Positions 24,982-36,735 of a stretch of 64,000 nucleotides of DNA are shown in pieces. Each line of letters starts with the position of its first letter. Within the stretch, counting starts at the first letter, position 1. This stretch comes from Hwanghaeella grinnelliae (GTDB lineage Bacteria > Pseudomonadota > Alphaproteobacteria > UBA8366 > Aestuariispiraceae). The notes under the pieces were generated by a model. That model was given only the letters and a program-made list of their open reading frames with translations, had not been told where the DNA came from and made no database searches. Both the position numbers and the translations under genes were made by a program. The stretch is from NCBI RefSeq assembly GCF_004005845.1, contig NZ_SADE01000003.1, positions 620,001 through 684,000 on the forward strand, in the 5' to 3' direction.

Positions 24982-26823
24982 TCACGGTTCCTTGAAACTG
25001 TTGTCCAAGGCGCGCGCGATCGGATAGACGAAGTAAGAGATCACCTTGCGTTTGCCGACGGTGATCTCGGCCGTTCCCGTCATGCCTGGAATCAATCGGA
25101 AATTCGCGGGCACGCTGCGTAAATCATGGTCGGTGATCTCAACCTTGGTCCGGTAGGTGGGTTCGGATTTTCCATCCTCGGCCTTGACCGTGTCCTCGCT
25201 GATCAAAAGGACCGTTCCTTGAAGGCTGCCGAATTTTTGGAAAGGCAAAGCGTCCAACTTTATCCGCACCGGATCGCCAACCTTAATCTGGCCGACGTCT
25301 TTCGGCGCAACACTCGCTTCCATCTGCAACTCGACATCCAATGGCACGATCGTAAAGAAAGGTTCGGCCTGCTGCACCACGGACCCGGCAGAGCGATCCG
25401 CAATGTCCAACACGATTCCACGGGCGGGCGCCGTCAGTGAAACAAGACTTTCGCGCCGTTCGGACTTCTTCAGTCTCTCTTCCATCTCCTGACGTTGACG
25501 ACGTGTCGCGGCAAGTTGTTGCGCGATCTGGGATCGATGGTTGCTGGTATAGGCTTCACGGTCCTGCCGTGCGGCTTCCCGTTCATGAATGAGGCGCTGA
25601 CGAACGCTCAACAGGCGGCGCTGCTCGCGCTCGACGGACAATCGCTGATTCTTGGCCACCAGGAACTGAACGCGCGACCCATATCCGTCGTTCATCAGCT
25701 TGATGCGCATGCCTTCGATCTCTCTCAGCACCTCAACCTGCTCAGCCATGTCTGCCGCGTCCTGCCGGTTGATGACGAGGTCCGCCTCAAGCTGGGAAAT
25801 TCGTTCGTTCCAGGATGACAGGGTCGCGACATATTCGGCGCGCCGCCGGTCGAAAATCTCCCTCTGCAAAAGATCAATCGCTGGAACGGGTGAAAAACTT
25901 TCCGGATCGCTTGCGGCAAGCTCCGCGGTCAACCGCCGCTCCTCAGCCGCAATGCTGATCAGGCTGGATCGGCTTGCCTGGAGGTCTGCTTCAGCAAAAG
26001 TCGCATCCAAAGTCGCCAACAACTGCCCTTCTTCGACGATGTCCCCTTCCTTCACCTCGATACCCAGGACCACCGCGGTTTCGACCGGCTGAACCAGGAT
26101 ATTGGGAACGGCCGGCGCGACCCGGCCCGGGGCGATGACCGCCGTATCAATTTCCGCAAAGGAAGCCCAGGTGAGTACCGAGAGAAAGAACCCGACGATC
26201 AGATACAAAGTGACCTTGGCGATCATCGGAAAACGGCTTTGTTCCAGTTCCACGGCATCCGGTCGGAACTCGGACAAATCGTCGGACGAGGAAAAGAACC
26301 GGCGCATCGCACCGATAGGCGAGAGCCGTTTTCGCAGGGGAGTGGGTGTCTCCCCCATATCACCGCCGCGCACCTTGTTCTCCAACTGGGATTTCAAGAA
26401 ATACTGATGCGCCATTCGGTCATTGGTTTCCCGCAAATTGCCGATCAGGCGATTCACGAGGTCGAGGGCGAATTGCGGGTCCTGTTCCATCCGGGCCAGG
26501 AATTCGGAAACGGCAAACCGCTCCACCACGACATCCGTTTCCGCGTAAGCGGAGGCACTGCGCGGCTTCCCGTCAATGATTCCCATTTCGCCGAACAATT
26601 CGCCCGCGTGGATGCGGCGCAGATGAACCTCGCCTTTCCCGGTATCCTTCGTCAGCCAGACCGTGCCGGAACGGATCAGATAGGCGACGTCGCTGTCCTC
26701 GCCTTCGAAGAAAAGATACTCTCCGGCGCCGAAGTGAACGCTGTTGTCCTTGCGTGGTCCTTGGACAGGTTGCAGATTGCCGCCTAGCGGGGTGATCTTC
26801 GCGGCGGGTTGTGTCGATGCCAT
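24982..26823 (-). CDS. HlyD-type secretion adaptor with N-terminal cyclic-nucleotide-binding domain
   Basis: A 613-residue fusion. Residues ~30-140 form a Crp-like cyclic-nucleotide-binding domain (FGAGEYLFFEGEDSDVAYLI) with a phosphate-binding cassette at about 74-91 (GELFGEMGIIDGKPRSAS) that keeps the Gly-Glu and Arg-Ser residues. A ~60-residue linker leads to one membrane helix at about 201-222. The remainder is a HlyD-type periplasmic adaptor: a lipoyl half (GIEVKEGDIVEEGQLLATLD), a long coiled-coil hairpin at ~285-450, the second lipoyl half, and a beta-barrel ending PGMTGTAEITVGKRKVISYFVYPI. The start is the ATG at 26821-26823, five bases after the ABC exporter stop. The cytosolic sensor could gate secretion; that is inference. 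Confidence 0.9.
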   Translation of the reverse strand: MASTQPAAKITPLGGNLQPVQGPRKDNSVHFGAGEYLFFEGEDSDVAYLIRSGTVWLTKDTGKGEVHLRRIHAGELFGEMGIIDGKPRSASAYAETDVVVERFAVSEFLARMEQDPQFALDLVNRLIGNLRETNDRMAHQYFLKSQLENKVRGGDMGETPTPLRKRLSPIGAMRRFFSSSDDLSEFRPDAVELEQSRFPMIAKVTLYLIVGFFLSVLTWASFAEIDTAVIAPGRVAPAVPNILVQPVETAVVLGIEVKEGDIVEEGQLLATLDATFAEADLQASRSSLISIAAEERRLTAELAASDPESFSPVPAIDLLQREIFDRRRAEYVATLSSWNERISQLEADLVINRQDAADMAEQVEVLREIEGMRIKLMNDGYGSRVQFLVAKNQRLSVEREQRRLLSVRQRLIHEREAARQDREAYTSNHRSQIAQQLAATRRQRQEMEERLKKSERRESLVSLTAPARGIVLDIADRSAGSVVQQAEPFFTIVPLDVELQMEASVAPKDVGQIKVGDPVRIKLDALPFQKFGSLQGTVLLISEDTVKAEDGKSEPTYRTKVEITDHDLRSVPANFRLIPGMTGTAEITVGKRKVISYFVYPIARALDNSFKEP

Positions 26824-26828
26824 ACCGC

Positions 26829-28973
26829 CTACTCCGCCGCCTGGTGGCGGTGGTAATCCACACTCTGCTGCTGCCAAAGGTGTCGGTACAGATCACAACC
26901 GGCCAGCAGATCTTCATGCGTCCCCGCACCCACGATCCTCCCTTCATCAACGACAATGATCTTGTCCATATTCATAAGGGCGGAAAGACGGTGGGATACG
27001 GTGATTACCGTTCGTCCCTCGGCAATACGGGCCATGTTCGCTTGAACGATGGCCTCGCTCTCCGGGTCCAGGGCGCTGGTTGCTTCGTCGAGGATCAAGA
27101 TACGCGGTTGCTTCAGTAGGGCCCGGGCAATGGCCAGCCGCTGCTTCTGGCCGCCGGAAAGGTTGGTCGCGCCCTCTTCCAGCGGCGTATCGTAGCCCTG
27201 CGGCAAGCGTTGAATGAATTCGTCGGCGCCGGCGAGACGCGCGGCAGCGACAATTTCAAAGAAGCTAGCCTCTGGACGGGTCGCGGCGATGTTCTCCTTG
27301 ACTGTCCCTTTGAACAGGAAGCTTTCCTGCAGCACGACCCCGGTATTCATCCGAAGATGTGCCAAATCAATTTCGCGCATGTCGGTACCGTCGATACAGA
27401 TCATCCCAGTCTGCGGCGCGTAGAGCCCCTGCAACAGACGGATCATGGTGCTCTTACCCGAGCCCGACCTGCCGACGACACCAAGCGACTGATCCACGGA
27501 CAATGTGAAGGAAACCCGGTCCAATGCGGGGGCGGCGGAATTGGGATACTTGAACCCGACCTCTTCGAAATCGATGCGGCCGTCGATTTCCGGGGTCAGT
27601 CCGCCGGACTTCGACTGCTCGGGGTTCTGGTTCATGACCTGACCGAGCATCCGGACGGAGAGAGCCGCCTGCTGATATTCATTTATCAAACCGACGGCAG
27701 CAATCAACGGACCGCTGACGCGCTGGGCCAGCATGTTGAAGGCAATGATCGCGCCAATCGTAAGGTCGCCCTGGAACACAAGCTGAACACCTACGAAAAG
27801 GATCGCGATCGACATCAAGGTTCCGAGGTATTTGGTAATGCCGCTGACCAATTGCGACAGCCTGCCGACGCCGATATGCATGGCAATGGTCCGCGCGGCG
27901 CGGCGATCCCATTCCGCACGACGGACCGGTTCAATCGCCAAGGCCTTGACGGTTTCCATCCCCGCGATCGTCTCTACAAGCATCGATTGGCGATCGCCTT
28001 CCGCCCTGTAGAGCGCCGATAGCCGGTCCTTGTAGCTGCCTTTGATCAGGAAACTGATGCCGGCGATCAATCCGGAAAACCCCAGAACGACCATGGTCAG
28101 GGCCGGGGAATAGAAGGTAAGGATCGGTATGTAGACCAGAAGCGCCAGACAATCGAGGAAGGTCAGAAACAGCCGACCAGTGAGGAATTCGCGCACCGTC
28201 GAGGTCTGCTGCATGTGTTTGGTCAGCGCCCCGGCGGAGGTCTTGCGAAAGAAATCGATCGGCAGCGATAACAGTTTTCCGAAGGTTCGTGTCGAAATGC
28301 GAATATCGATCTTGCTGGTTGCGTGAAGCAACAGCATGCCCCGCAGATACTCGATCACGGCGTTGAAGGTCACAGCCGCCACCACGGCGACGGCCAGAAC
28401 ATAAAGCGTGTCCAAGCTGTGATTGCCAATGACCTTGTCGAACGTGATCTGGAAGAAGATCGGCTGCGACAATGCAAAGAGATGCAGCAGCAAAGCGACG
28501 AAACCGACTTCCAGGAATACCGACTTGTGGCGCAGCATCTCCGGAATGAACCAGCGGAACCCGAAGGGCTGGTCCTCCTCGGTCAAACGCGCAGCCTGTT
28601 TCAGGAAAATAACCTGTCCGAGCCAGGCGTTTTCCAGTGTCATCTGATCGATGGGAATGACCTGGCCGGATTCCGCCAACGGATCGATGATCCTCACAAC
28701 AGGGTCATCACCGGACGCGTCATAGCCGGCCAGGATAACCCATTTGCCGTTCGTAAGTGGGCAGAGAACAGGATACGCGTCCCCGATATCCGCAAGGTTT
28801 CGCCACGACACGGACCGGAGACGGCCTTTCAATCCCAGGTCCTGGGCGATGCGAAGCAGTCTTTCGGGGGCAGGTTCCTCCGTCAGGGCGAAGTCATGCG
28901 TCAATCGTTCCGGCGTGACGTCTACGCCATGCCGCCGGGCCAGAAGCGCAAGGCATTGGATGGCCGTCTGCAG
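26829..28973 (-). CDS. HlyB-type type I secretion ABC exporter with C39-like domain
   Basis: An inner-membrane ABC exporter of 714 residues if started at the CTG at 28971-28973. The N-terminal C39-peptidase-like domain begins LQTAIQCLALLARRHGVDV and lacks the catalytic Cys, as in HlyB, so it should bind rather than cut substrate. Six membrane helices follow at about 150-430, then the ATPase: GRSGSGKST near 510, LSGGQKQRLAIARAL, ILILDEATSALD and a switch His (VSHRL). No ATG, GTG or TTG exists in frame upstream of the domain start; the CTG has GGAGG exactly seven bases before it. A TTG at 28902-28904 would remove the first helix of the C39-like domain. It lies between the small paralogues and the adaptor gene. 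Confidence 0.9.
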   Translation of the reverse strand: MQTAIQCLALLARRHGVDVTPERLTHDFALTEEPAPERLLRIAQDLGLKGRLRSVSWRNLADIGDAYPVLCPLTNGKWVILAGYDASGDDPVVRIIDPLAESGQVIPIDQMTLENAWLGQVIFLKQAARLTEEDQPFGFRWFIPEMLRHKSVFLEVGFVALLLHLFALSQPIFFQITFDKVIGNHSLDTLYVLAVAVVAAVTFNAVIEYLRGMLLLHATSKIDIRISTRTFGKLLSLPIDFFRKTSAGALTKHMQQTSTVREFLTGRLFLTFLDCLALLVYIPILTFYSPALTMVVLGFSGLIAGISFLIKGSYKDRLSALYRAEGDRQSMLVETIAGMETVKALAIEPVRRAEWDRRAARTIAMHIGVGRLSQLVSGITKYLGTLMSIAILFVGVQLVFQGDLTIGAIIAFNMLAQRVSGPLIAAVGLINEYQQAALSVRMLGQVMNQNPEQSKSGGLTPEIDGRIDFEEVGFKYPNSAAPALDRVSFTLSVDQSLGVVGRSGSGKSTMIRLLQGLYAPQTGMICIDGTDMREIDLAHLRMNTGVVLQESFLFKGTVKENIAATRPEASFFEIVAAARLAGADEFIQRLPQGYDTPLEEGATNLSGGQKQRLAIARALLKQPRILILDEATSALDPESEAIVQANMARIAEGRTVITVSHRLSALMNMDKIIVVDEGRIVGAGTHEDLLAGCDLYRHLWQQQSVDYHRHQAAE

Positions 28974-29035: not shown

Positions 29036-29284
29036 TTATTCAGCGGCCTGTTGTTCCGTCCGCGAGATCAGCCCCTTTTCCTCCATACCTTGCAACGTCT
29101 GGCTTAGGGCTCCGACAAGACGCATGAAGGCCCGGGGACTCATGACAAGCTGTTCGACAAATTCAGGCACCGGATTCCCTTCCTTGTCGCGGGTGGTCGG
29201 CGACATGGCGAGCAGGTCCATGCGAATGACGCCTTCGGACAAGCGGACTTCGCCAACACCGTCGATAAAGGTTTGATTAGCCAT
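29036..29284 (-). CDS. Small secretion-locus protein A, unknown family
   Basis: An 82-residue protein I cannot assign to a family. It begins with ANQTFIDGVGEVRLSEGVIRMDLLAMSP, contains a charged turn (RDKEGNP), and ends in a helical half (EFVEQLVMSPRAFMRLVGALSQTL and QGMEEKG). It has no signal peptide or membrane helix, so it is cytoplasmic unless secreted by the neighbouring exporter. By hand alignment about 38 of 67 positions match the next gene, so the pair arose by duplication. The layout (beta strands, then an EFV helix, then MSP and a helix ending in EEKG) recalls DUF3467-type proteins, but that is only an impression. It has a ribosome site (GGAG). Confidence 0.8.
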   Translation of the reverse strand: MANQTFIDGVGEVRLSEGVIRMDLLAMSPTTRDKEGNPVPEFVEQLVMSPRAFMRLVGALSQTLQGMEEKGLISRTEQQAAE

Positions 29285-29327
29285 GGTTCACTCCGTTCGT
29301 TTGGTTGTTCTCGTAAATAGGACGGGC

Positions 29328-29690
29328 TTAGAAGTTTGGTGAGCCGGACAAGACCTTGCGCTTTGGTCGGTCCTGCACGTCCGGGTCCGCAGGCTTCACG
29401 GCCAGATCCGCAGTCGTCGCGACACCGGGATCGACTTCGTCCCTGTGACCGTCAATATCCTGTGTGAAATAGCCCTTGTCCTGCATCGCCTTCATCGTAT
29501 TGCGCATGGTTTTCACCATGCGGATGAAACCGACCGGGGTCATGACGAGCTGCTGCACGAATTCCGTCGTCGGCACCCCATCTTCGTTCCTTAGCGTCGG
29601 GGACATGGCCAGCAGATCCATCCGGATCGCACCGTCCTGCATTCGGGTTTCCCCGACCCCATCGATAAAAATACGTTTATCCTTTGCCAT
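29328..29690 (-). CDS. Small secretion-locus protein B, paralogue of A
   Basis: A 120-residue protein sharing FIDGVGE, IRMDLLAMSPT, EFVQQLVMTP and the terminal KG region with the preceding small protein, plus a ~40-residue hydrophilic C-terminal tail rich in Asp, Pro and Lys (VKPADPDVQDRPKRK). It has no export signal. I start at the ATG at 29688-29690 because AGGGG is six bases upstream; a GTG one codon earlier is too close to that site. The gene lies 29 bases after the giant repeat protein, which suggests a chaperone, secretion-timing or immunity-like role for that protein; none of these is established. Confidence 0.8.
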   Translation of the reverse strand: MAKDKRIFIDGVGETRMQDGAIRMDLLAMSPTLRNEDGVPTTEFVQQLVMTPVGFIRMVKTMRNTMKAMQDKGYFTQDIDGHRDEVDPGVATTADLAVKPADPDVQDRPKRKVLSGSPNF

Positions 29691-29719: not shown

Positions 29720-32700
29720 TTATGCATTTCCTTGAACGTTGAAAATATCGTCCGTTTGATCGTCTTGGACGGATTGGATGAACGCCACATCGACCGGCGC
29801 CGCATTGGCGATGCTTTCCGCTGACCCGTCGGACGCCACAACGGCGTCTTCCAACGCACTGGCCAAAGCTTCGAATGTTGCGTTCGAATCCGCTTGCAGG
29901 AGGTCCGCCAAGCTTGCGGACTTATCATCGGTTTCTGCAACGCGCTGAAAGATATCGGTTAGATCGAATTCGATGGTCTGATCCCCAAAGTCGATCTTCA
30001 GGTTTTCTATCGCGAAGTCCTCGCCGTCGAACATGTCGTTGATCAAGATGTTGCTGGTCGACCCTTCGCGACCGGTACTGATCGCGAAATTGTCGTCGCC
30101 AAAAAGGAAACCCTCATCCACGGTGAAGAGGATATCACCCAGGTCGAGTGCCGGTTCGGCCCCAAACTGATTGATGTTGAACAGGATCGTGTCTGTCCCG
30201 GTCTCCCCGGTATCGGTGATGATGTCCATCCCTTCGCCTTGGTAGAAGACATAGGTGTCGGACCCGTCACCGCCTGAGATGTTATCGACACCGAAGCCGG
30301 AAACGAAGATATCGTCTCCATCGCCGCCACGCGTTTCCGCCGCGCCGGCGGAGCCGAAGAAGCCGCCAAAGTCCTCTACGTCGAAGCCTTTGACCAGGGC
30401 GTCGAACTCCTCATCGTTCGGAAGGAAACCTTCGAACAGTCCGGTTGAGAATTCGTCCAACAAGTCGTTGAAGGCGTCGGTGATATAAGTCCCGGCATCG
30501 TCGAAACTGCCCTCCACGGCCTTGCCCGCGTTGGCGAGATCTCCGTCCGGATCAAGGAATGTATCCTGCAGCTTGCTGTCGATGCTGGCGAACATTTCAG
30601 AGATCTCGTCGCCCAACCCGGAAATCGTATCCGTGATTGTGTCGTTGAAGGCGTCCAGGAATGTGTCGATCGCCCCCTCGAACGTCTCGAAGGCAACGGT
30701 CAAATAGTCAGCGAACTCGGTGAAGATCCCGTAACCGATTTCCAGGAACAAGTCGTTCCCGGCATCGCCATCCGACGACGCCGTACCGCCGAGGTTGACG
30801 AGCACATCATCCCCTTCACCACCAAGCAGGACAGCTCCGCCCGCCATGTTGACCAGAAAATCATCGCCATCGCCGGCATAGACGAAACTGCCAAGCCCAC
30901 CGGTGTAGACATTATCATTGCCGTGCCCGGTGAAGATCAAACTGGCCGCGCCGGTCGCAACAACCGTATCGTTCCCGGCATCCTTGCTGGTATTCAGCAG
31001 ATCATCCAACTGTTGCAGGTAGCCGCCGTCGGCGGACTGATCCGTGAACAGTTCCGTATAGAGATCCTGCGCCGCCGTCGCGACGCCGGTAACGGTGTCA
31101 CCCACGAGGCTGGCCAGCGTTTTAACAGCCGCGCTCCTTATGCCGCCGGAGAAATCCGTGCTGACGATGCTGCCGAGTCCCGCGGAAATCACCGTGTCGT
31201 CTCCGGCCCCGCCCATCATCCAGTTAGCGGCGCCGAAACCGACAAGCACGTCGTTTCCATAGTCGCCGTTGATAATGTTCATCGCGCCGATACCGACGAC
31301 GAGGTCGGCCCCCGACCCACCGCTGAGGTTGTTCTGCACCCCAACGGCGACGATTTGATCGTCCCCTTGCATACCGAGCACTGTGGACGATTTCCCTACG
31401 GTGACGATGGTGTCGTCCCGTATTTCAAAGTCATTACGCGTGTATTCGATACCGGCAGCTTCAGCCTGTGCGCGCCGCTCATCGGATTCGTCATAGGTAC
31501 CCGCAAAACGGCCCAGGTCTTTCGAAGGGTCGCCGCCATCTGCGCCGAATAGGTTGCCCAACGTGTTTTTTGCGAAATCACCCAAGGCAACCAAGTCGAA
31601 TTGATCGCCCAGGATGATGTTTTTCGCCCCAACGGCGACGATCGTATCGTCGCCCTGTCCGCCGGAAACGATGTTCATTTCACCGACGGTCAGGACCACG
31701 TCGTTGCCATCGCCCGCAAGCGAGATATTCATCGACGGGATTGTGGTCTCACCACCCGAAAACGGTAGACCCAGGACATACATCGACTTTTGAAATGTGG
31801 ACTTGTCTGCCCATGATTTCTCAGTGGATAGAACCGACCCTTTCAAACCGACATTCAGGTTTGTGATGAAATCGTCACCCGCGCCGGTAACCGCTAGATT
31901 GGCTCCGAGTAATTGGGCGAGCCCGCCCGCCGATGTGAACAACCCGCCAAGGCCGTTGAGGTTCGGCGACAGGATCGACGCCGGGGTGGAGAGAATCCCC
32001 CCGATCATGAAGACACTGTCGTTGCCCGCGTCGGTGATCGCCACATTTGTTTGACCGACCGCCAGGATGTCGTCGTTACCGGCGCCGGTCGCAAGGACGT
32101 TCGCGCCCCCGGCCACCATGACGAGGTCGTCGCCTTCTTCCGCCACAACCACGTTCGCGCCGCCAAGCCCGATTACGACGTTGTCGCCGCCGCCGGCATG
32201 AATGAACTGCCCCGCGGCCGCGGAGTAGACCTGGTCGTCGCCGGCGCCAGTCGAAACCCCGCTGGCCAAGCCAACCAGATAGAGCGTGTCGTTGCCCTCA
32301 CCGGAATCGATATAGGAGCCGGCCGCCGCCGCGTGGATTGTGTCATTGCCGTCGCCGGTATCGATGCGCGCGCCGAAATTGGCGGCATAAACCACATCAT
32401 CCCCGCTGCCGGCCACGATATTCGCACCGGCAGCCAGGACATGGATTGTGTCGTTGCCGCTGCCGCCCAGGACATTCGCGCCGGTCGCGGTCAGATTAAT
32501 GATGTCGTCGCCGCTACCAGCGTCCAAATGCACGCCGACGGCACCGATCCATGCCGTATCGTTGCCGGAGCCCAATTTGACGTTTGCACCGACCGCCCCC
32601 ACGGTGACGGTGTCGTTGCCGGCACCGGAATCCACATCGGCACCCAGGGAATAGACGTCGATTTCGTCGTCACCGCCATACGTGTAGACGGACGCGTACG

Positions 32701-34588
32701 CGCCGTACGTTGAGACCTTGTCCCGGGAGGAGCCGTAGATATCAATATCCACATTCGCGCCATCCGCATCGACGTTGGTTCTACCGCCAACCCCGCCGTG
32801 TATCTGAACGCTTGTATCAAAGGAAAAACCGGCATCAACATTGATTCTGCTGTCATCGCCCGCCGTGATGGCGATATCCGACGTTCCGCCACCGGACGTA
32901 TCGACATCGATCGTGCTGCGGGCCCCGGAGACGACTTCGATGTCGTTCCCCTCGATTCCTAAGACGTCGGAGTCGATCTGAATGGTGTTGTCTGCGCCTG
33001 AAAGCTTGACCGTCGCGTCCTCGACGGAATCGTCACCCCAGCCCAGTTGAACGATGTTGTTGCCCTGTCGGTCCGCGTTGTAGGCCGTTCCGTCGATATA
33101 GACATCATCTGCATCCTCGATCCAAATCCGGCTGTCTTCCAGATTGGACATGTTCAGGGAGACATCGAAGGCATCGTCTATGTTGACGTTCTGATAGCGG
33201 GATTGCCCGCGGACGGTCAGGGAAACATCGTCTGCGTCGTCTATATCGAATGTATTGTACCAGCCCGCCGTCGCGATCGAGACGTCGTCTATATCTTCCA
33301 GGCGGAAGGTGTTGGCGCCTTCGGACGTGTTGATACGAACATCGTCCGCATCCGTAACCGTTACGTCATTGTGGAAGGAGTAGGCCTTGTCCCCCAATTC
33401 AAGACGCACGTCGTCGGCGTCGTTGATATCGATCTTGTTGTCACCGCCATAGATATTGAGGTCGATATCATCGGTGTCATCCAAGGTCAGGGTATTGCCG
33501 CCGGCGTCGATGTCGATCCAGGTATAGTCGGAATCGACGATGCGGATATCGTTGCCGCCCTCTGCCCCGTTGAAGTTCAGGCGGACGGACTCCTCTGAGA
33601 AGTCGTCTCCCTCCAACGTCTTCTGGTTCATGTCGATATTGACGCGGTTGTTGCCGTCATGGATCGTCGCATCGACGCTGTCGGCATCCCAGACCTTCAG
33701 ATAATTGCCGCCGTCACCACCGAAATTTACCCGCACGTCGTCCGCGTACCAAATGTCGACGTGGTTTTCACCCCAGCTGAAATCCACCTCCACGTTATCG
33801 TTATGGCCCGCATAGAGCGTGTTACCGGAGCCGGTGGCGTACACACTGACATCCAGGGAATCATATACTTCGATCTTGTTATTCGAATTGCCGTACTGGT
33901 CCATCTGGACCCGTACATCGTCGGAGTTCTTTACGTAAAAACGTCCGTTCCCCGCATCGGTATCGATCCAGACGTCGTCGGCATCGCGGACCTCGACATC
34001 GTCATACCCGCGTCCGCCCTGGAAATTGAGATTGACCGAGTTCTCGCGGGTATAGTCGCCATCCCAAAAATCCTGCTGCATATCGATGCGGACCGTGTTC
34101 CCACCGCCCCAAATTTCGGCGTTGACCGTATCCGCGCCTTTGATATCGACCCAGTTGTCGCCGGACCCGCCCAGATGGAGCGCCCCTATATCGTCGGCAT
34201 CGTAGATATTGACGGAATTTGCGCCCCAATCGGTCCAGATATCGACATCGTCGACATCCTGGAACCGCATCCAATTGCCGCCGCCAGTGGCATAGAAGCT
34301 GATATCGTCAGCGTCATAGACCTGGACGCTATTGTTGGAATTACCGTACTGATCAAAATTGAACCGGACGTCATAGGCATCCTCTACCTTGAACCATGAG
34401 CCGCCGGCATCGGTGTCGATCCAAACGTCACTGACATCGGTGATTTGGGCGCTCACGCCGCGGGAATTGTTGAAGTTGACCGAGACATTGCCCCAGTCCT
34501 TGATGCTGGCCCAGCTTGTGTTCCCCAGGGTCTCGTTGAAGTCCGCACCCCAAAAGCGGTCCCAGGAATCCGCGTGGTAGTTTGTCAC
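29720..34588 (-). CDS. Giant RTX-like repeat protein, predicted type I secretion substrate
   Basis: A 1622-residue, very acidic protein without a signal peptide. Residues ~50-540 consist of ~20-residue units centred on DADDV, likely a beta-solenoid. Within them a ~151-residue block is tandemly repeated (Trp56, Trp207 and Trp357 are equivalent). Residues ~650-860 are regular 18-residue units of the type GSGNDTIxVxAxGANIxx. Less regular GxGxD units run to ~1280, then a helical segment (~1285-1400), two canonical RTX nonapeptide rows at ~1420-1460 and a hemolysin-type domain ending FDLTDIFQ. The last ~60 residues (Ala/Asp/Val-rich, no Cys) fit a C-terminal type I signal. It starts with GTG (GGAG seven bases upstream). 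It is the first gene of the secretion operon; the role may be adhesion, matrix or S-layer-like. Confidence 0.92.
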   Translation of the reverse strand: MTNYHADSWDRFWGADFNETLGNTSWASIKDWGNVSVNFNNSRGVSAQITDVSDVWIDTDAGGSWFKVEDAYDVRFNFDQYGNSNNSVQVYDADDISFYATGGGNWMRFQDVDDVDIWTDWGANSVNIYDADDIGALHLGGSGDNWVDIKGADTVNAEIWGGGNTVRIDMQQDFWDGDYTRENSVNLNFQGGRGYDDVEVRDADDVWIDTDAGNGRFYVKNSDDVRVQMDQYGNSNNKIEVYDSLDVSVYATGSGNTLYAGHNDNVEVDFSWGENHVDIWYADDVRVNFGGDGGNYLKVWDADSVDATIHDGNNRVNIDMNQKTLEGDDFSEESVRLNFNGAEGGNDIRIVDSDYTWIDIDAGGNTLTLDDTDDIDLNIYGGDNKIDINDADDVRLELGDKAYSFHNDVTVTDADDVRINTSEGANTFRLEDIDDVSIATAGWYNTFDIDDADDVSLTVRGQSRYQNVNIDDAFDVSLNMSNLEDSRIWIEDADDVYIDGTAYNADRQGNNIVQLGWGDDSVEDATVKLSGADNTIQIDSDVLGIEGNDIEVVSGARSTIDVDTSGGGTSDIAITAGDDSRINVDAGFSFDTSVQIHGGVGGRTNVDADGANVDIDIYGSSRDKVSTYGAYASVYTYGGDDEIDVYSLGADVDSGAGNDTVTVGAVGANVKLGSGNDTAWIGAVGVHLDAGSGDDIINLTATGANVLGGSGNDTIHVLAAGANIVAGSGDDVVYAANFGARIDTGDGNDTIHAAAAGSYIDSGEGNDTLYLVGLASGVSTGAGDDQVYSAAAGQFIHAGGGDNVVIGLGGANVVVAEEGDDLVMVAGGANVLATGAGNDDILAVGQTNVAITDAGNDSVFMIGGILSTPASILSPNLNGLGGLFTSAGGLAQLLGANLAVTGAGDDFITNLNVGLKGSVLSTEKSWADKSTFQKSMYVLGLPFSGGETTIPSMNISLAGDGNDVVLTVGEMNIVSGGQGDDTIVAVGAKNIILGDQFDLVALGDFAKNTLGNLFGADGGDPSKDLGRFAGTYDESDERRAQAEAAGIEYTRNDFEIRDDTIVTVGKSSTVLGMQGDDQIVAVGVQNNLSGGSGADLVVGIGAMNIINGDYGNDVLVGFGAANWMMGGAGDDTVISAGLGSIVSTDFSGGIRSAAVKTLASLVGDTVTGVATAAQDLYTELFTDQSADGGYLQQLDDLLNTSKDAGNDTVVATGAASLIFTGHGNDNVYTGGLGSFVYAGDGDDFLVNMAGGAVLLGGEGDDVLVNLGGTASSDGDAGNDLFLEIGYGIFTEFADYLTVAFETFEGAIDTFLDAFNDTITDTISGLGDEISEMFASIDSKLQDTFLDPDGDLANAGKAVEGSFDDAGTYITDAFNDLLDEFSTGLFEGFLPNDEEFDALVKGFDVEDFGGFFGSAGAAETRGGDGDDIFVSGFGVDNISGGDGSDTYVFYQGEGMDIITDTGETGTDTILFNINQFGAEPALDLGDILFTVDEGFLFGDDNFAISTGREGSTSNILINDMFDGEDFAIENLKIDFGDQTIEFDLTDIFQRVAETDDKSASLADLLQADSNATFEALASALEDAVVASDGSAESIANAAPVDVAFIQSVQDDQTDDIFNVQGNA
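32009..32635 (-). repeat. 54-bp-period RTX-like coding repeats
   Basis: About eleven consecutive 18-residue units encode alternating rows: one carries GxGxD (GSGNDT, GSGDD, GDGNDT, GEGNDT, GAGDD) and the other is calcium-motif-free and Ala/Gly-rich (AVGANV, AAGANI, NFGARI). Canonical RTX has a calcium motif in every nine residues, so this is a half-loaded variant. Confidence 0.8.
33524..34426 (-). repeat. Tandem ~450-bp coding repeat in the giant protein gene
   Basis: Two adjacent blocks encode residues 55-205 (33974-34426) and 206-355 (33524-33973). Both begin VWIDTDAG, continue with DVR.. and DQYGNSNN, and share the order ATG-GN, WG-N-V-IY-ADD, NTVRIDM/NRVNIDM and ENSVNLNF/EESVRLNF. A third, shorter and more diverged copy begins at residue 356 (TWIDIDAGGN). 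The period is 150-151 residues. Confidence 0.85.
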
Positions 34589-34953
34589 CTTATGTCTCCT
34601 GCGCGTGTCGTCACGGGCGTTTGATCCGTACTAGGCGACGATGCACGGGATCGGTGGCCCGGCTCTTCGTGATATACGTCAACCTTTTGCGACAGAATTC
34701 AGACCCGAACAGTCACATCCCTTGCCCGTGTTCCGCAGCAGATGCGGAACAAAAGATGCGACCGCCCTCCTTCGGCGAAAACTTCGGGCCGGAGATTACT
34801 CAAATAGCCGGAATAACGAACATATTTCCGACAAGTTGACCGATATGCGCGCAAAGTTGTCCCCTTCGTGACCGCTTTCGCCTTTCTCGATCTGGGCAAG
34901 CCGGTACACTCACAGCAGGAAACAGCCGCACAATTCGACTCGGGTTGAGGCAT
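34589..34953. promoter_or_regulatory. Divergent control region of the secretion operon and its regulator
   Basis: This 365-base region separates the two divergent starts. It contains a perfect 9-bp inverted repeat, TGTTCCGCA-GCAGA-TGCGGAACA, at 34729-34751, which has no T-run on either side and so looks like an operator rather than a terminator. An imperfect dyad (CGGAATA ... TATTTCCG) lies near 34809-34830. No single promoter pair stood out on either strand. Confidence 0.5.
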
Positions 34954-36735
34954 ATGAATAGCGTCATGTTGCGCCCCATCCCGGTCGCGATCGCCGTAAG
35001 CTTGCTGGTTTTGATCGGCTTTTGGGCCGTTGAAGGAAAAAGTGAGCAGTCACCCCCACTGTGCGGGCAGTCTATTGCCGAAACACCGACGGCGACTGTC
35101 TTCGACCATAACTCGGTACAGGAGTTGCTTTTCCTCCGTGCCGACTTTCTGCTTGATACGAGCGGGGCGGAACGGCCCGACGACCTTGACGGCAAAGATT
35201 TCCTTAAGTCACCCTGCCTCGACCGTTATCCGGCCCCGGCACCGGGAGCAGCGCTTTGGCTCCGATTCAGTATCCAAAACGACACGAACACGGCGCGCGA
35301 CTGGCGGATCGGCTTCAGCGAATATCTTTACGGTTCGACAATTCTTTACCGTGACGATCCGCAATCCGAACCGCTAGCGGCTGCGGGCCGAAGCGTTCCA
35401 CGGCAGGAACGGACATTCATCAGCCTCCGCCCTCAGCTTCCCCTCTCACTCGCGGCGGGTGAAAAACGGACCTACTATCTGCGGATCGCCGAAACCTGGG
35501 ATGTGGCCGTTACTCCCTACGTCATGAGTCCGGCCACAGCATATACCCAGAACGAATTCGCCAGCCTGGTATCTGCTCTTTTCCTAGGGTTTCTGGCAGC
35601 TACGCTCGTCATCAGCCTGGTGCTGTTCCGGCATGCGGACGTTACCAACTACCAATTCTATTCCCTTTACGTCATCAGCATGCTGGTTTCCTCCCTGCTC
35701 TACGATGGATGGTTCCACCATTTGACGGAGTCCGGCTTGGATTTTGTTCTGATGGTGCGGGCGATCGAGGCGCTCTTTGCGCTTTGCGCTGTCGGATATG
35801 TTCTGTTCTGCCAAAACATCCTGACCTTGACCACGGATCGGCCCAAATGGCCGCGATTTTTCTCGTTAGGCCTTGGTGCCCTCACGGTCAGCGCGGTCTT
35901 TGCCGTCCTCGATCCTTGGATTTTCGACCTGCCACTCACTCTCGTCATCCTGTTCCTGCAACTCGGGGTACTGGTAGCGGCCGTCATGCGCATCAAGGAC
36001 GGTATTCCGGAAGCTAAACCCGTCGCCGCTTCAGCGGCTTCCCTGTTTATCCTGATCACAATTGGGCACATTCCTTATATATTGACGTTCCACCTGGACA
36101 CAGCGGACGCGTCCACAAAACTCGCTTTTGAACAAATGAGCGAAGTGGCCTTTTATGCAGCCGTGTTGGGTGAAGCTATTTTCATGGGGATCGCGATCGC
36201 GGTGCGGGTCAACTCCCTGCAAGCGCAACGGCTTGCCGCAACGGCTGAGGCAAACGCGCTCAAGCACGAAGCCCAGGCAATAAGAGCAACCCTCGACGAG
36301 GCCAGAAGAGTGTCCGGAAGCCGTATCGCGGCATTGGAAACACGCTTGATAGAAACCGCGAACGATACGGAAAAAGTGTCGTTGGCCCCGGCGGATAGCC
36401 GCTTCCTCGACTGGGCCAAGGAGCTGGTGCAAGCAAATATCGGCGATCCCGCCTTCGGAGTCCGTCAGCTTTCGGCCGCCTTGGGTACCAGTGAGAAGAC
36501 ATTGGGGCGGCGGTTGAAACAGTCCCTCGGTCTGACCCCGGTCGCCTTTATCCGGCAAGAGCGCCTGAACCGTGCGCGGGACATGCTCTTGATCCGGCAA
36601 TTCAATACAGTGGCAGAGACCGCACATGCGGTCGGCTTTTCCAGCACGGGCCATTTCGCAAAACTATATCGCGAGGCATTTGGTGAGACGCCAAATGCGA
36701 CGCTTCGCGCGGCAATACGGGACCATCAAGACTAA
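34954..36735 (+). CDS. 7TMR-DISM sensor fused to AraC-type DNA-binding domain
   Basis: A 593-residue membrane regulator (numbers are from the first in-frame codon, a TTG at 34945). Residues ~12-30 are a signal/anchor. A periplasmic 7TMR-DISMED2-like beta domain covers ~45-195 (LWLRFSIQNDT, WRIGFSEYLYGSTILYRD). Seven hydrophobic helices lie at ~205-422, then a coiled coil at ~425-470, then an AraC/XylS two-helix-turn-helix domain at ~487-590 (FGVRQLSAALGTSEKTLGRRLKQSLGLTPVAFIRQERLNRAR and AHAVGFSSTGHFAKLYREAFGETP). 7TMR-DISM modules usually carry kinase or GGDEF outputs; an AraC output makes it a one-component membrane-bound regulator. It likely controls the divergent secretion operon. The start is uncertain; the ATG at 34954 is preferred over the TTG. 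Confidence 0.85.
   Translation: MNSVMLRPIPVAIAVSLLVLIGFWAVEGKSEQSPPLCGQSIAETPTATVFDHNSVQELLFLRADFLLDTSGAERPDDLDGKDFLKSPCLDRYPAPAPGAALWLRFSIQNDTNTARDWRIGFSEYLYGSTILYRDDPQSEPLAAAGRSVPRQERTFISLRPQLPLSLAAGEKRTYYLRIAETWDVAVTPYVMSPATAYTQNEFASLVSALFLGFLAATLVISLVLFRHADVTNYQFYSLYVISMLVSSLLYDGWFHHLTESGLDFVLMVRAIEALFALCAVGYVLFCQNILTLTTDRPKWPRFFSLGLGALTVSAVFAVLDPWIFDLPLTLVILFLQLGVLVAAVMRIKDGIPEAKPVAASAASLFILITIGHIPYILTFHLDTADASTKLAFEQMSEVAFYAAVLGEAIFMGIAIAVRVNSLQAQRLAATAEANALKHEAQAIRATLDEARRVSGSRIAALETRLIETANDTEKVSLAPADSRFLDWAKELVQANIGDPAFGVRQLSAALGTSEKTLGRRLKQSLGLTPVAFIRQERLNRARDMLLIRQFNTVAETAHAVGFSSTGHFAKLYREAFGETPNATLRAAIRDHQD

Follow-up and report, generated by a model that had tools for sequence, protein, structure and literature searches.

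A family of small proteins in Pseudomonadota, uncurated and without a name, carries a C-terminal SPNF tag where its genes adjoin one subfamily of HlyB-type ABC exporters, and the tag stays while the substrates of these operons change. One copy ending in S-[S/P]-N-F is present in 27 of 28 HlyB-adjacent loci and in 0 of 48 other loci, taken from two Pseudomonadota classes. Two members of the family, smallA and smallB, lie in the window, that is, the whole stretch of 64,000 nucleotides of Hwanghaeella grinnelliae DNA that was analysed. The link of genomic context to the C-terminal tag is new here; a preliminary description of the window had not recorded the tag at the end of the 120-aa protein.

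The gene pair and its family

The genes are arranged in the order giant, smallA, smallB, hlyB, hlyD (Table 1), so that the pair sits between an RTX-like ORF and the gene of a HlyB-type ABC exporter, as had been described earlier. Neighbouring genes are separated by short gaps of about 30, 43 and 60 bp, and therefore the stretch from the giant gene to hlyD is likely one operon. Conserved adjacency to HlyB- and HlyD-type genes places the small genes in type I secretion operons. BLASTP aligns smallA and smallB with 38 identities in 70 positions (54%), 77% positives and an E-value of 4e-29, a likeness far beyond chance, and the hand count of 38 in 67 given before was essentially right. smallA consists of a core (approximately residues 1-77), a variable linker and the terminal SPNF. 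No export signal was seen by eye in either protein, and the two are the sole family members within the genome of the window. The RTX-like giant had no Pfam match at E 0.001 despite the 19 motifs listed in Table 1, and its repeat length is apparently about 17-18 residues.

Table 1. Features of the secretion operon, in positions of the window
Feature	Positions	Strand	Remark
smallA, 120 aa	29331..29690, stop codon to 29328	-	exporter-type ('tagged') family member
smallB, 82 aa	29039..29284, stop codon to 29036	-	tagless paralogue
HlyB-type exporter, N-terminal C39-like domain	26829..28973	-	start suggested by homologues
HlyD-type adaptor, N-terminal cyclic-nucleotide-binding domain	24982..26877	-	
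RTX-like protein, 1622 aa, presumed substrate	29720..34588	-	19 GxG[NDS]Dx motifs
SPNF-encoding codons TCA CCA AAC TTC of smallA, then stop	29331..29342	-	

The listed HlyB ORF begins at 28904 and lacks the first 23 residues relative to its homologues. Comparison with these homologues suggests that the true start is a CTG codon at 28973, located 7 nt downstream of GGAGGGGGAGG. Use of the first ATG, GTG or TTG as the start would remove 23 conserved residues from the C39-like domain.

The family is widespread and occurs in roughly 5-10% of the sampled Pseudomonadota genomes. Members were found in 24 of 385 genomes of the class with a two-row profile and, with a 23-row profile, in 18 of 297 genomes of one order and in 38 of 398 genomes across the phylum, the second class included. 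Many of them are solo genes in unrelated contexts. The core signature is F-x-D-G...G-x-[VI]-R-[IM]-[DE]...[RQ]-[LV]-[VI]-M-x-P-x-x-[FA]..., followed by a helix with a conserved Gly at its end. No model of Pfam or NCBIfam reached its cut-off with smallA or smallB, weak MarR matches in the Pfam search staying below it, and this agrees with the earlier placing of the pair outside known families. A PDB sequence search found no solved structure matching either protein, PHROGs gave no convincing match for the family, and a profile search of genome contigs with the two-sequence alignment gave no match.

The SPNF tag, neighbouring exporters and cargo

In a first set of 46 loci, comprising class members, named plasmid records (R. 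etli and Azospirillum lipoferum) and the MAG locus L089, exactly one copy ends in S[SP]NF in each of the 20 HlyB-adjacent loci and none does in the 26 non-adjacent loci (Fisher 1.8e-13). The association holds when the set is collapsed by family and context (12/12 vs 0/19, p 7e-9). Adjacency is defined here by similarity to the HlyB of the window, so other exporter types are outside the count; in L210, for example, a tagless member adjoins a distant HlyD-like gene. In the second class the tag is present in 7 of 8 HlyB-adjacent loci and in 0 of 22 others; these counts take L213 as adjacent, its HlyB beginning 7 bp downstream and being cut by the contig end, and they become 6/7 and 1/23 without this truncated gene. 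The exception is L225, which has HlyB and a tagless member with no recognisable tagged copy. Locus L208 came close to an out-of-sample test, since its tag was noticed before its HlyB (50%), which surfaced in a wider fetched region.

The S[SP]NF end is sometimes extended by 1-4 residues, and the linker before it is variable. Wherever paralogues stand in tandem (the window, L034, L040 and L212-L216) the tag is on exactly one of them, in the window on the 120-aa protein and not on the 82-aa protein. The gene adjoining HlyB is usually the tagged copy; the window differs, as tagged smallA is not beside HlyB. Codons for Ser, Pro, Asn and Phe of the tag each vary synonymously across loci, so that the constraint is on the protein and the tag is not a DNA or ribosome-binding signal; the position of the tagged gene in the window also excludes such a signal. 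At least 4 changes are needed to place the tag on a tree of the core domains; it thus tracks context rather than ancestry and is not the mark of a single clade of small genes.

On the exporter side, the residues that set the linked HlyBs apart (such as HMQQ at 230-233) are mainly in the transmembrane domain, and most of them are also present in some unlinked relatives. They therefore mark a subfamily only, and a docking surface on HlyB drawn from these residues is not supported. The linked exporters do not form one clade in the HlyB tree. In L176 a free-standing C39-like domain (positions 910-1467, 185 aa) is encoded between the tagged small gene and HlyB and is 35% identical to the N-terminus of the latter. 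The small protein of L178 (1024-1542) runs on past its SPNF in a longer extension, and beside its gene only the last 46 residues of a HlyD are left, 63% identical to the HlyD of the window; this may be a decayed or misassembled locus.

The presumed cargo of the tagged operons is of several kinds. RTX proteins are present in the window and, divergent, in L040; giants bearing DUF4082, cadherin-like and DMFA2_C domains, and a CobW gene in between, in L047, L168 and eight related loci; a serralysin-like M10/RTX protease in L214, an arrangement repeated in L212-L216; and clostripain-type C11 peptidases in L208 and L209. Since these proteins are mutually unrelated, the tag follows the exporter and not the substrate. 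None of the large cargo proteins ends in SPNF. Tagless copies have other neighbours. Giant ORFs lie next to 8 of the 36 members of the second class (tagged L208 among them), as compared to 0 of 127 background ORFs. The tagless copy of L089 stands immediately after the C-terminus of an RTX protein, and no exporter is in its vicinity. This suggests a division of labour between substrate-side (tagless) and exporter-side (tagged) copies; many tagless solo members have neither a giant neighbour nor an exporter close by. In the BltDE-like operons of L047, L168 and L181 a CobW-type GTPase is encoded between the small gene and the DUF4082 giant, and from this neighbour a metal-related role of the giant is possible.

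As judged from gene order and sequence, the rhizobial BltDE system is one of the tagged-type operons. In R. leguminosarum 3841, passages of the published account place BltDE at pRL90164/65 with the giants pRL90159/161, which carry repeats of about 140 aa, just upstream (PMC2275737); the same passages do not mention a small gene beside BltDE. The gene numbers 90159, 90161, 90164 and 90165 would leave room for two CobW genes and a small gene. The syntenic R. etli operon has the order giant-CobW-giant-CobW-small-HlyB-HlyD, and the product of its small gene RHECIAT_PC0000254, annotated 'hypothetical conserved protein', ends in SPNFN. The literature searched yielded no description of this small gene. 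HlyB of this type of operon is about 53% identical to that of the window, whereas its giants are of the DUF4082/cadherin type rather than RTX and there is one small gene instead of two. Supernatant proteins of a bltD mutant are described in those passages as unchanged (PMC2275737), and on that account an exporter of this kind has no known active cargo.

Fold and relation to known families

The position of the pair had been compared to the slot where RTX operons carry an acyltransferase. This comparison did not hold. In L040 a two-domain HlyC (PF02794, E 1.6e-48), two family members, HlyB and HlyD stand in a row, and in other loci the substrates differ. PF02794 had no match in smallA or smallB in the Pfam search. 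The coexistence of HlyC with two family members in one operon means that the small proteins are not substitutes of HlyC, and replacement of the acyltransferase is thereby excluded. The HlyC of L040 (10637-11638), 334 aa long, contains two HlyC-type acyltransferase stretches within a single chain.

An AlphaFold2 model of smallB, made from eleven sequences, has a mean pLDDT of 87 and confidently predicts a beta-beta-beta-alpha-(alpha) fold with a long helix. Foldseek with this model found nothing at E 0.001 among PDB and viral structures. Structural re-ranking placed COMM domains first with Z 5.4-5.8 over 58-64 residues (8esd_S, rmsd 2.3 over 58 residues) and gave PUR-alpha and PC4 a Z of about 4, values below 8 that may reflect nothing more than a common arrangement. 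The modelled core would share three beta strands plus a helix with the COMM domain of COMMD proteins, but the pair has no Pfam match to COMM. COMM domains form dimers, which makes a smallA-smallB heterodimer an attractive guess.

A vague likeness to DUF3467 (PF11950), raised in the preliminary description, is suggestive. smallB scores 13.6 bits and the best family member 19.0 bits, both below the gathering cut-off of 25, and smallA has no match. Over 22 family-bearing genomes, the best match of the DUF3467 model is a family gene in five, which represent three lineages (G124, G238 and G330 of one genus, G137 and the genome of the window); its best matches in four other genomes are unrelated. 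hhalign of the two profiles gave a probability of 5% and an E-value of 0.0074 in a plausible register, and a single-sequence DUF3467 model (pLDDT 59) was too poor for a fold comparison. The proteins are of similar size and share a stretch around 'R[VL]xxSP' with a helix after it, while the SPxHAKR motif of DUF3467 was not seen by eye in our family. Remote kinship is plausible, with scores below the cut-off for membership. We know of no link of DUF3467 to exporters.

SecB is about twice the size of these small proteins. The pair has no match to the SecB family in Pfam, NCBIfam or PDB sequences, and SecB was not among the matches listed in the structural comparison. By analogy, the pair could resemble SecB in its work for HasA, as a cytosolic helper that holds type I cargo unfolded (PMC3034196), and differs from it in lacking a SecB sequence match and in having an exporter-linked tag.

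Proposed role and alternatives

The usual view of type I secretion is of a machine with three parts and no dedicated chaperones. An exception is SecB, which is needed for export of HasA, and the cargo is taken unfolded (PMC3034196); substrate is recognised mainly by the C39-like domain (CLD) of HlyB (PMC11026475). These facts would suit a small cytosolic adaptor able to hold cargo and to dock on the exporter. We consider, with about even chances of being right, that smallA and smallB assist a type I secretion system from the cytosol, most likely as a chaperone/adaptor pair for export; the free-standing C39-like domain beside the small gene of L176 also counts in favour. As to the chaperone or pilot role proposed earlier, the tie to the exporter is supported and the role appears plausible. 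In the proposed mechanism, smallA and smallB would each contribute a small beta3-alpha core, to which smallA adds a flexible linker and the C-terminal SPNF. The cores may form dimers and take hold of the unfolded giant, or of its C-terminus. SPNF, as a short linear motif, may dock on the exporter from the cytosolic side, perhaps at the C39-like domain, and the tagless paralogue would be the substrate-side partner, possibly paired with the tagged copy. Against this reading stand L225, where the only copy beside HlyB is tagless, the many tagless solo members that lack a giant or an exporter in their surroundings, the mainly transmembrane position of the residues that distinguish the linked HlyBs, and the unaltered supernatant proteins of the bltD mutant. 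Type III secretion uses cargo-specific chaperones, and by extension of that analogy we tentatively propose a fourth component in a subset of type I systems, in which the beta3-alpha adaptor docks through SPNF and receives giants from tagless sister chaperones.

That the tag goes with the exporter and not with the class of substrate, and that the gene beside HlyB is usually the tagged copy, would equally be expected of an exporter assembly or gating factor, which binds HlyB/HlyD through SPNF and stabilises or gates them without holding the substrate. Cyclic-nucleotide-binding domains on the HlyD of several loci and the setting of L034 among response-regulator genes also suggest controlled secretion. 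We regard this explanation as rather unlikely, as it leaves unexplained the tagless paralogues beside RTX or giant genes away from exporters. Secretion signals of type I systems are C-terminal, and SPNF could in principle be such a signal on a small secreted cargo; the related BltDE system was once guessed, according to passages of PMC2275737, to be bacteriocin-like. However, the large cargo proteins of the same operons have no SPNF end and the core is common to members far from any exporter, which makes small cargo improbable. Least probable, and indeed very much so, is a nucleic-acid-binding regulator of the operon with a PUR/PC4-like fold: the structural matches to PUR-alpha and PC4 and the MarR matches, all of them weak, speak for it, but the cores of the family are mostly acidic or near neutral, which argues against nucleic-acid binding, and such a regulator would have no need of an exporter-linked C-terminal tag.

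The observations on the chaperone/adaptor reading suggest dedicated export helpers so far without description for the type I secretion machine, and a conserved family of partners whose docking-like tag is nearly invariant would give this machine a further component. Such a family would also provide a sequence handle for locating sets of exporter and substrate in Pseudomonadota, and a motif that can be tested in rhizobia, where genetic work is tractable.

The HlyDs of L034, L040 and L212-L216 also align across the cyclic-nucleotide-binding region of the window HlyD, a domain whose presence hints at possible second-messenger control of secretion. In L034 (8710-11948) response-regulator and Hpt genes are interleaved with the type I secretion operon. 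In the window, the divergent gene adjoining the giant (34945-36735) codes for a fusion of a 7TMR-DISM membrane sensor with a DNA-binding domain of the AraC type.
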